Positions 5,700 to 8,107 of a stretch of 55,350 nucleotides of DNA are shown in pieces. The notes below the pieces were generated by a model, which ran no database searches, was not told the origin of the DNA, and saw only the letters and a program-made list of their open reading frames with translations. This stretch comes from Rubripirellula sp. (GTDB lineage: Bacteria; Planctomycetota; Planctomycetia; Pirellulales; Pirellulaceae), in NCBI GenBank assembly GCA_012270065.1, contig JAAXJB010000069.1, forward strand, positions 13,381 through 68,730, written 5' to 3'. Made by a program: the position numbers and the translations under genes. The first letter of the stretch is position 1. Each line of letters opens with the position of its first letter.

Positions 5700-5803
5700 A
5701 CCGCAGGGGTGTCCTTTTTGGGCTGAGAGTTCTGGGCAAAGCGATTGAAACCCAAAACAACCCTTCGAACCTGATACGGGTCACGCCGACGAAGGGAGCG
5801 AGA
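5700..5803 (+). promoter_or_regulatory. TPP riboswitch (THI element) upstream of thiC
   Basis: The conserved thi-box core is visible: GGGGTGTCC at 5706-5714, GGCTGAGAG at 5721-5729, then CTTCGAACCTGATACGGGTC at 5763-5782 and GACGAAGGGAGCG at 5788-5800. These match the TPP aptamer consensus (GGGGUGCCC, GGCUGAGA, CCUGAUCYGG, GCGWAGGGA). CGC at 5702-5704 can pair with GCG at 5798-5800 to close stem P1. It lies about 80 nt upstream of the thiC ATG in the same orientation, the commonest target of this riboswitch. Thiamine pyrophosphate binding should lower thiC expression. Confidence 0.95.
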
Positions 5804-5845
5804 CGGCCGCGTAATATTTCTTTCGGACTTCGCCGTTCTCTCTTT
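5800..5845 (+). terminator. Candidate riboswitch expression-platform hairpin
   Basis: GAGACGGC (5800-5807) can pair with GCCGTTCTC (5832-5840) with one bulged base, followed by a pyrimidine-rich TCTTTT. The 5' arm touches the last bases of the aptamer (GCG at 5798-5800), so formation could be exclusive with P1 and act as a conditional terminator. The stem is imperfect and the loop long (24 nt). Translational control through the GGGAAG at 5875-5880 is an equally plausible alternative. Confidence 0.35.
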
Positions 5846-5882
5846 TCCGAGTCTTTTCCTGATTGCAACCTAAAGGGAAGAA

Positions 5883-8036
5883 ATGAATTCTCCAAAGATG
5901 CCAGTGTTGAACAATTTGAACGATGCCAGTCAACGCGGTGATTTTTCGGGGCAGGTTCCGGAGGCGGCGGACAACGCAGAAGAAATTCGCGCAATCGAAA
6001 AAGACCCGACGCTCTTCCCCAACTCAACCCGCATTTATGTCGAAGGTGAAATTCATGAGGCACTGAGGGTTCCCATGCGTGAGATCCGTGTTTCGGACAC
6101 GGAGCATCCGAACGGTGAGATTGAGAAGAATGAACCCGTTCGAGTCTATGACTGTTCCGGGCCGTGGGGCGATCCCGAATTCAAAGGTGATGTGACTCAG
6201 GGCCTTCCCGCTCTCCGACAAAAATGGATTCTTGACCGGGACGATGTCGAGGAGCACTCAGGGCGTGAGGTCAAACCGGAAGACAATGGTTATCTGTCGG
6301 AAGAACATTCCGAAAAGTACAACCAGCTGAAAAATGTGAAGAACCGTCTGAAAGAATACCCCGGACTGAAACGCAAGCCCCTTCGTGCCAAGGGCAGTCT
6401 GAACGGGGATGGTGACTGGCACCCGGTCACGCAGAAGTGGTACGCCGATCAGGGGATCATCACGCCCGAAATGGAATACGTCGCCATTCGTGAAAATCTG
6501 GGACGGAAAGAAGAGTTCAAGACCATTGCGGACAAGTATCCGAACCTTCGCGATCTGCCACCAGAAGCTTCCGAACGAATCCGGCAATTGTGTTCTACCC
6601 CTGACGGTTACGAAATGCCGAGGCCTTCCGAGGTCGACCCGGACGCACAGGTTGCCCGCAATCGCATCGATCACCAGCACCCGGGCCAGTCATGGGGAGC
6701 GATGACTCCTGCTTTCATCACGGCTGAGTATGTACGTTCCGAGGTCGCTCGCGGTCGTGCGATCATTCCGGCCAACGTCAATCATCCGGAAAACGAACCG
6801 ATGATCATCGGCCGTAACTTCCTGGTAAAGATCAATGCCAACATTGGCAACTCGGCGGTCACCTCGACCATCGATGAAGAAGTTGAAAAGATGCGTTGGG
6901 CCACCAAATGGGGCGCCGACACGGTCATGGACCTGTCAACCGGCAAAAACATTCATGCCACACGTGAGTGGATCATCCGCAACAGCCCGGTGCCGATTGG
7001 CACAGTGCCGATCTATCAGGCGTTGGAAAAAACAGGCGGAAGCATTGAGGCTTTGACCTGGGAGATATTCCGGGACACCCTAATTGAACAGGCGGAACAG
7101 GGCGTCGACTACTTCACCATTCACGCAGGTGTACTGAAAGCATTCATTCCGTACACGGCCAAACGCATGACGGGGATTGTGTCCCGGGGAGGTTCGATAC
7201 TGGCAAAGTGGTGCATTCACCATGAAAAAGAGAACTTTCTCTATGAGCACTGGGACGAGATTTGTGATATTTGCGCAGCCTATGATGTGAGTTTCTCCAT
7301 TGGTGACGGCTTACGGCCAGGCTCGATCGCCGACGCGAACGACTACGCGCAGCTTGCTGAACTGGAAGTGCAGGGAGAATTGACCAAACGCGCATGGGCC
7401 AAGGGGTGCCAGGTGATGAACGAGGGGCCAGGTCATGTCCCCATGCACCTGATTCAGGAAAACATGCAAAAGCAGATCGAATGGTGTCACGAAGCGCCCT
7501 TCTATACTCTCGGCCCGCTGACCACAGACATTGCCCCCGGATACGATCACTTCACCTCAGGGATCGGAGCAGCCCAGATTGGCTGGTATGGGTGTGCCAT
7601 GCTTTGCTATGTGACCCCCAAAGAGCACCTTGGGCTGCCTGACCGCAACGATGTTCGTGAAGGGGTTGTTACCTACAAGATTGCCGCTCATGCTGCTGAC
7701 TTGGCAAAGGGACACCCCGCAGCCCAGATCCGTGACAACGCACTCTCCAAGGCTCGTTTCGAATTCCGCTGGCGTGACCAGTTTGCATTGGGACTCGATC
7801 CGGCACGAGCGATCGAGTACCACGATGAAACCCTGCCAGCAGAAGGTGCCAAAACCGCCCACTTCTGTTCGATGTGCGGTCCAACATTCTGCTCCATGAA
7901 AATCACCGGTGACGTCCGCAAATACGCCGAAGAACAGGGTGTAGAACAACAGGACGTACAGCAACAGGTTGCACAGGTCCAAAGTGAAAAGGAAGAAGGG
8001 GCACAAGAACAGATCACCCGTGTTCACCCCCGATGA
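5883..8036 (+). CDS. thiC: Phosphomethylpyrimidine synthase ThiC
   Basis: ThiC is the radical-SAM enzyme that rearranges 5-aminoimidazole ribotide into hydroxymethylpyrimidine phosphate, the pyrimidine half of thiamine. It is cytoplasmic. The 717-residue product is collinear with long-form ThiC: an N-terminal domain with NSTRIYVEG, a catalytic core with [19 protein letters not shown] and [16 protein letters not shown], and the C-terminal iron-sulfur motif C-x2-C-x4-C at Cys662, Cys665 and Cys670. ATG 5883 is preceded by GGGAAG at good spacing and lies downstream of a TPP riboswitch. After the cluster motif there is a Gln/Glu-rich tail of roughly 45 residues ([13 protein letters not shown]...), which looks lineage-specific. 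The stop codon lies inside a tandem repeat. No other thiamine gene is nearby. Confidence 0.98.
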
Positions 8037-8107
8037 ACAACCGGGTCACTGATGAACAACCGGGTCACTGATGACCGAACGGGTCACCGATCACCGACCG
8101 GGTCACT
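8032..8107. repeat. 4 x 19 bp degenerate tandem repeat over the thiC stop
   Basis: Four head-to-tail 19-bp units: 8032-8050 and 8051-8069 are identical (GATGAACAACCGGGTCACT), while 8070-8088 and 8089-8107 differ at a few positions but keep the GGGTCAC core. The thiC stop TGA (8034-8036) is inside the first unit. The array fills most of the 101-bp gap between thiC and the convergent WD40 gene. Four short degenerate units without spacers do not make a CRISPR array. Confidence 0.9.

Follow-up and report, generated by a model that had tools for sequence, protein, structure and literature searches.

Probable acquisition of a TPP riboswitch and its thiC gene from Verrucomicrobiota, with displacement of the native thiC, in Pirellulaceae

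Introduction

Why does a thiC gene with its own riboswitch stand alone in a Rubripirellula region given over to accessory genes? The control of thiC by TPP is established, and a preliminary description of the window (the whole 55,350-nucleotide stretch of DNA analyzed here) had singled out the riboswitch-bearing thiC as its only core-metabolic gene. Our analysis indicates that thiC looks isolated because it is foreign: its isolation results from horizontal acquisition, together with displacement of the native thiC elsewhere in the genome, which the window alone cannot reveal.

Results

The riboswitch, thiC, and the genes around them

The proposed TPP riboswitch ahead of thiC was upheld by a covariance-model search: the RF00059 match, 68 bases upstream of thiC, scored 54.9 bits, narrowly above the gathering score of 54.3, with E 4.6e-8. 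It is the only Rfam match in the window above cut-offs, and no second TPP match was found in the 7.0 Mb genome. The element shares with RF00059 TPP (THI-element) riboswitches the aptamer fold, the core words, the position before thiC, and a score above the cut-off, but differs in that the score is borderline, lowered partly by a longer P3 stem-loop, and in having a lineage-specific expression platform. By score and position it is identified as a TPP riboswitch, with a predicted response to TPP. The product of the gene behind it scored 981.8 bits against NCBIfam PRK09284 (cut-off 650) and contains the CX2CX4C motif, in agreement with its earlier assignment as ThiC, the activity being predicted. 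It has the core, the ThiC-associated domain, and the motif of ThiC proteins of known structure (PDB 3epm, 4n7q), but differs from them in the additional residues 216-266 and in its variable tail.

Pfam scans of 31 selected larger ORFs of the window returned planctomycete cytochrome and DUF families, sulfatases, esterases, an ECF sigma factor, and unknowns, seven of the 31 having no match at E ≤ 0.001. No core biosynthetic family other than that of thiC was found among these larger ORFs; within this set thiC is indeed the only core-metabolic gene, and it does stand alone among accessory genes. One promoter-like site of the TTGACC-17-GATACT type was found, against 1.4 in shuffles, which is not significant alone; the site keeps its place in the leaders of relatives. 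Elsewhere in the window, a perfect 16-nt tandem repeat of 4.3 copies (51149-51217; TRF, 100% matches) lies between larger ORFs. The features of the locus are listed in Table 1.

Table 1. Features of the riboswitch-thiC locus (window coordinates)
Feature	Position	Strand	Remarks
Transferred unit (similarity to other long-thiC loci)	5648-7956	+	ends approximate; blastn
Promoter-like TTGACC-17-GATACT	5663-5691	+	part of transferred unit
TPP riboswitch aptamer (RF00059)	5695-5814	+	3' strand of P1 ends at ~5800
Aptamer 3' strand, antisequestor	5794-5804	+	5794-5798 with 5855-5859; 5802-5804 with 5851-5853
Bulged hairpin H1	5800-5840	+	5800-5807 with 5832-5840, one bulged base
Anti-Shine-Dalgarno tract	5855-5859	+	partner 5875-5879 or 5794-5798
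Shine-Dalgarno-like AGGGAAG	5874-5880	+	ahead of ATG 5883; kept in most leaders
thiC, phosphomethylpyrimidine synthase (predicted), long kind	5883-8036	+	717 aa
ThiC residues 216-266	6528-6680	+	no counterpart in solved ThiC chain 3epm
Gln/Glu-rich tail coding stretch and stop	7929-8036	+	15-nt tandem repeat at its start
19-nt tandem repeat, 4.0 copies	8032-8107	+	over thiC stop codon

Three kinds of ThiC in the genus and family

Among 22 genomes of the genus, including that of the window (G000), the long kind of ThiC occurs in five (G000, G002, G006, G008, and G009, the last four with proteins 92-94% identical to that of G000). A short kind, 62-64% identical, is found in ten, being in two pieces (59% and 68%) in G015, and a middle kind, 55-57% identical, in five. 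G005 (98% complete) has only a weak ThiC match with a stop and G011 (90% complete) has no ThiC match; both are possible thiamin-precursor auxotrophs.

Across the 241 genomes of the family, a ThiC match is present in 228 and a TPP match in 31, 30 of the latter being above the cut-off. The long kind occurs in at least 33 genomes and at least 9 of 68 genera, counting G188, whose leader runs into a long-kind reading frame. Among the matches listed, 30 of the 33 long-kind genomes have a TPP match (that of G165 falls below the cut-off, at 48.8 bits); the leaders of G002, G066, and G183 lie outside their ThiC matches, which start at residue 76, 287, or 424. The aptamer leads directly into a long-kind thiC in 28 loci, and that of G167 lies at a contig end. 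The 31st TPP match, in G062 (L207, ~5032-5152), is on a different contig from the thiC of that genome; the ORF behind it appeared thiG-like by eye but had no thiG match in NCBIfam. None of eight genomes checked contains two full ThiC genes; G101 has, besides its long thiC, a C-terminal fragment of 113 residues that most resembles short ThiC (74%).

The riboswitch accompanies the long kind of thiC

With a covariance model built from 24 aptamers, 62 of the 80 best long-kind loci proved to have an aptamer ahead of thiC; some of these loci had supplied sequences to the model. Three of the 62 matches are weak (23-24 bits) and one is truncated at a contig end. With the same model, no aptamer was detected before the short- or middle-kind thiC of 55 loci, which represent 43 genomes, some drawn twice, and include a few truncated at contig ends. 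Four short-kind loci from the genus gave nothing from Rfam at E up to 1, and all ten verrucomicrobial loci tried gave an Rfam TPP match. A text pattern was discarded as a riboswitch detector, since it matched 39 of the 80 loci and missed true ones (L063, L064, L069), and the covariance count was preferred. The middle-kind loci L130-L134, L205, and L206 (G019, G007, G010, G016, and G004) have no aptamer.

The 18 long-kind loci without an aptamer include L084 and L026, the gene of the latter being cut by a contig end. L018, L020, and L024 are planctomycete long-kind thiC loci of one clade with a different, riboswitch-free leader, which is a loss after acquisition. In the remainder (L041-L044, L050, L052-L056, L061, L062, and L076) a CTGAGA word stands at the usual distance, ~150-195 bases before thiC, with no aptamer match; these are verrucomicrobial (L062 is titled only 'Bacterium'), and in this group the riboswitch may be eroding or changing. 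Weak aptamer matches were seen in L047, L051, and L058.

A self-contained unit with unshared flanks

When window positions 1-20000 were compared by blastn with 29 long-kind loci, in which some genomes are represented twice, similarity was confined to the unit given in Table 1, a few hits to other genes apart, with typical ends at 5632-5663 and 7918-7972. The shared DNA comprises the promoter-like site, the riboswitch, and thiC to its last conserved codons; at L018 the match is limited to the coding part. Flanking genes are generally not common to the long-kind loci. Two loci depart from this: L011 and L012 both carry, at a distance of some kilobases and in the opposite orientation, a GDSL gene resembling the one at 4842-5621, and L011 additionally has the HXXSHH and PSD genes. 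G006 and G009, with RpoB 97% identical to that of G000, carry the long thiC at a location common to both and different from that in G000. The genes next to it, encoding 772 and 477 aa, are present on contig C17 of G000 (73% and 82% identical), with no thiC within the 15 kb examined there.

No integrase or transposase family was found among the 31 ORFs scanned, and no vehicle or integration mark was identified. A viral vehicle was rejected, as no ThiC relative was found in viral contigs with six peptide patterns. Many transfers leave no vehicle or integration mark.

Displacement of the native thiC from its conserved site

The preliminary description had held that a conserved thiC neighborhood would tell against it; the riboswitch-thiC, with its unshared flanks, has none, and it is the displaced native short thiC that has one. 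The order there is SelA-like, threonine-aldolase-like, p374, OM476, thiC, MFS, DUF120, dapB (names assigned by eye), and it is conserved in G018, G012, G001, and genus g85 (G239, G231), and partly in others. In G000 the native neighborhood is on contig C42, where 335 bases separate the OM476 and MFS matches and no trace of an old thiC was found. Nor does the slot hold a thiC in G229 and G230, whose long thiC is elsewhere, or in G019 and G016, whose middle-kind thiC is elsewhere.

In two congeners the slot still holds remains of the gene: a decayed C-terminal thiC piece in G006 (50-53 residues, 40-42% identical, with stops) and a decayed middle piece in G009. Best E values with the slot alone were 3e-11 for G006 and 6e-13 for G009, and with whole 12-14 kb loci 2e-6 and 9e-12, respectively; controls with reversed DNA were without hits for both, and among 200 shuffled proteins the best values were 0.019 and 0.006. 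In G159 the riboswitch-thiC itself occupies the native slot (L200). G216 and G109 have not kept the neighborhood and are hence uninformative. The native gene has been lost from its conserved site, i.e., this is xenologous displacement.

The long ThiC of Pirellulaceae is nested within Verrucomicrobiota in ThiC trees

Compared with G000, four congeners with short ThiC have 91-92% identical RpoB and 58-62% identical ThiC, whereas ten long-ThiC genomes of other genera have 78-90% identical RpoB and 87-92% identical ThiC. ThiC is closer than RpoB in nine of these ten, the exception being G159 (RpoB 90%, ThiC 87%). For three Verrucomicrobiota, RpoB identity to G000 is 47-49% and ThiC identity 77-81%.

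A quick tree of 66 ThiC proteins placed 19 Pirellulaceae long copies as a clade inside Verrucomicrobiota. The Pirellulaceae long-ThiC clade received 100/99 support in a careful 55-row tree, and a single verrucomicrobial clade without the Pirellulaceae copies was rejected (AU p 0.013), the AU test having been chosen after the quick tree had displayed the nesting. The trees draw 18 Pirellulaceae and 34 verrucomicrobial loci from the 80 ThiC loci. Riboswitch and gene appear to have been transferred horizontally: the gene is nested in another phylum, where the riboswitch is also present. ThiC is widespread in the verrucomicrobial family of Rubritalea marina (G264, the genome of L064), with a match in 173 of 195 genomes, and the long kind is scattered in Pirellulaceae; together these fit a transfer from Verrucomicrobiota into Pirellulaceae.

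The expression platform

A bulged hairpin at the end of the aptamer had been put forward as a possible expression platform. The hairpin (H1) itself stands: its stability in the window sequence alone is no better than that of shuffles (z -0.61), but the hairpin is seen again in relatives, with a mean z of -1.34 for 28 related leaders. Across 24 leaders 87.5% of its cells are paired, and across the 16 closest leaders 95.3%, with one compensatory cell. The CUGAGA word and the start codon are 147-160 bases apart in 26 of 28 leaders, and 196 and 127 in the other two, the latter reflecting a mis-called start. The alignments (A1, A3) contain 24 of 30 aptamer loci; those left out are L140, with a long insertion; L150, whose leader is a duplicate; L153, with a mis-called start; L156, in which N occurs; L159, which does not precede thiC; and L162, at a contig end.

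In the 24 leaders RNAalifold chose an antisequestor pairing instead of H1, with little energy (-1.22 kcal/mol). Of the cells, 95.3% are paired in this way and ten are double-changed, a result that 1 of 500 shuffles reached; the double changes fall between two groups of related leaders, are alignment-dependent, and may go back to one or two events. Among the 16 closest leaders the antisequestor strand is invariant and hence uninformative, the sequestor (anti-Shine-Dalgarno tract with the Shine-Dalgarno sequence) is paired in 92.5%, and neither has a compensatory change. H1 is probably part of the expression platform but probably not the whole of it, since the antisequestor pairing is at least as conserved.

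With the aptamer held, the Shine-Dalgarno sequence became harder to open in 17 of 24 leaders, with a mean rise in cost of 1.22 kcal/mol compared with 0.72 for shuffled linkers, and 13 of 24 leaders exceeded their own shuffled linkers. For 23 of 24 leaders it was easier to open in the antisequestor fold than in the aptamer fold, a difference partly built into the comparison, and the antisequestor fold is costlier by a median of 6.3 kcal/mol. Shine-Dalgarno duplex energies gave no signal against shuffled upstream tracts (mean z -0.51 over 28). Modeled folding energies do not settle which reading of the switch is correct.

No terminator-like site was found on the + strand of 5500-8300; three candidate intrinsic terminators were all on the - strand, shuffles gave 3.1 in all, and they were dismissed. 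Because there is no + strand terminator-like site and the antisequestor is conserved, we put translational OFF control first, as likelier than transcriptional control. In the scheme we infer, with TPP bound the aptamer would retain its purine-rich 3' strand (5794-5800), H1 could form next to P1, and the tract 5855-5859 would pair with the Shine-Dalgarno sequence, turning thiC translation off; without TPP, the 3' strand would pair with that tract and leave the ribosome site free. Transcriptional control, with H1 acting as a terminator or pause hairpin and the antisequestor pairing incidental, seems unlikely to us. It would account for the conservation of H1, the pyrimidine-rich tract that follows, and the competition of an extended H1 with the aptamer in the free fold; against it, besides the + strand result, relatives have a mixture of C and U behind H1 and not a U run, and the antisequestor is conserved to the extent given above.

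The E. coli thiM element is a sequestor/antisequestor OFF riboswitch. Passages in PMC2258182 describe such OFF riboswitches, as well as TPP aptamers in which a purine-rich 3' region takes the place of the ribosome site. On paper, the translational OFF control favored here would have the same elements as in those passages: a ligand that frees a sequestor covering the Shine-Dalgarno sequence, and the purine-rich 3' end of the aptamer as a partner. The leader differs in having the additional conserved H1 between aptamer and sequestor, and its energies do not prove a switch.

The C-terminal tail is hypervariable

The unusual Gln/Glu-rich tail is real, comprising ThiC residues 683-717, but is no conserved signature. 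Its onset coincides with the 15-nt tandem repeat (7929-7968), and after residue 682 the tails are wholly different even among relatives ~93% identical; as these have nothing in common there, a functional signature was rejected. A recognizable common tail was seen in the verrucomicrobial loci L069-L075, L078, L080, and L082-L085. Given the 15-nt repeat at the start of the tail and the four-copy 19-nt repeat over the stop codon, repeat slippage is a likely source of the tail.

Discussion

The explanation that we favor, with a probability of roughly 0.85 for transfer and the translational OFF regulation taken jointly, is that a self-contained unit, made up of a promoter, the TPP riboswitch, and thiC, would have entered Pirellulaceae from Verrucomicrobiota, spread among Pirellulaceae genera, and displaced the ancestral short thiC, itself without a riboswitch. 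The patchy distribution of the unit, its sharp DNA ends, the ThiC tree, and the empty native slot in G000 are direct observations, as are the decayed native thiC in two congeners and the riboswitch-thiC in the native slot of one genome. The direction of transfer, which we infer from the nesting, as well as its route, the number of entries, and the reason why the unit was kept, are put forward conditionally.

Vertical inheritance from an ancestor with both kinds of thiC, lineages then losing one or the other, would agree with the presence of both kinds in several genera and with the losses that did occur at the native slot. We consider it highly improbable, given that in nine of the ten other-genus genomes ThiC is nearer than RpoB to its G000 counterpart, that the three Verrucomicrobiota also combine a close ThiC with a distant RpoB, that flanks are not shared, and that none of the eight checked genomes has two full ThiC genes, with a fragment besides the long ThiC in G101. 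That the contig came from another organism, through assembly artefact or contamination, is the least probable reading of all. Many of the compared genomes are drafts or metagenome assemblies, but the other genes of the window belong to planctomycete families, and thiC of this kind is also found on the Planctomycetes bacterium SV_7m_r chromosome (L015) and in the single-contig genomes G216, G229, and G159; without this copy, the genome (99.53% complete, 0.96% contaminated) would have no ThiC.

Acquisition from Verrucomicrobiota with displacement of the native gene is an event of a known kind, unusually well documented here. Passages in PMC5584792 report that lysine and purine riboswitches were transferred together with the genes they regulate, and a passage in PMC2258182 suggests such transfer for AdoCbl operons. 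As in those cases, riboswitch and gene have moved together between phyla; the present case differs in concerning TPP and thiC, in the visible displacement of a native homolog, with relics and an empty slot, and in that the unit's own promoter travels too. Among the literature matches listed, which exclude subscription journals, there was no account of a TPP riboswitch-thiC transfer into Planctomycetota. Planctomycetes are reported as makers of B1 and its precursors in part of PMC12442306.

More tentatively, the unit could be seen as a portable feedback-regulated gene that entered planctomycetes repeatedly and drove out unregulated thiC, the regulation itself being selected; this is possible, though we hold it to be rather doubtful. 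In a family where 210 of 241 genomes have no TPP match, a metabolite sensor would have been gained in one step by cross-phylum transfer. The genus also offers natural before-and-after pairs, congeners with ~91% RpoB identity that have the same enzyme with or without riboswitch control, and these allow a test of what was favored, the regulation or the enzyme itself.
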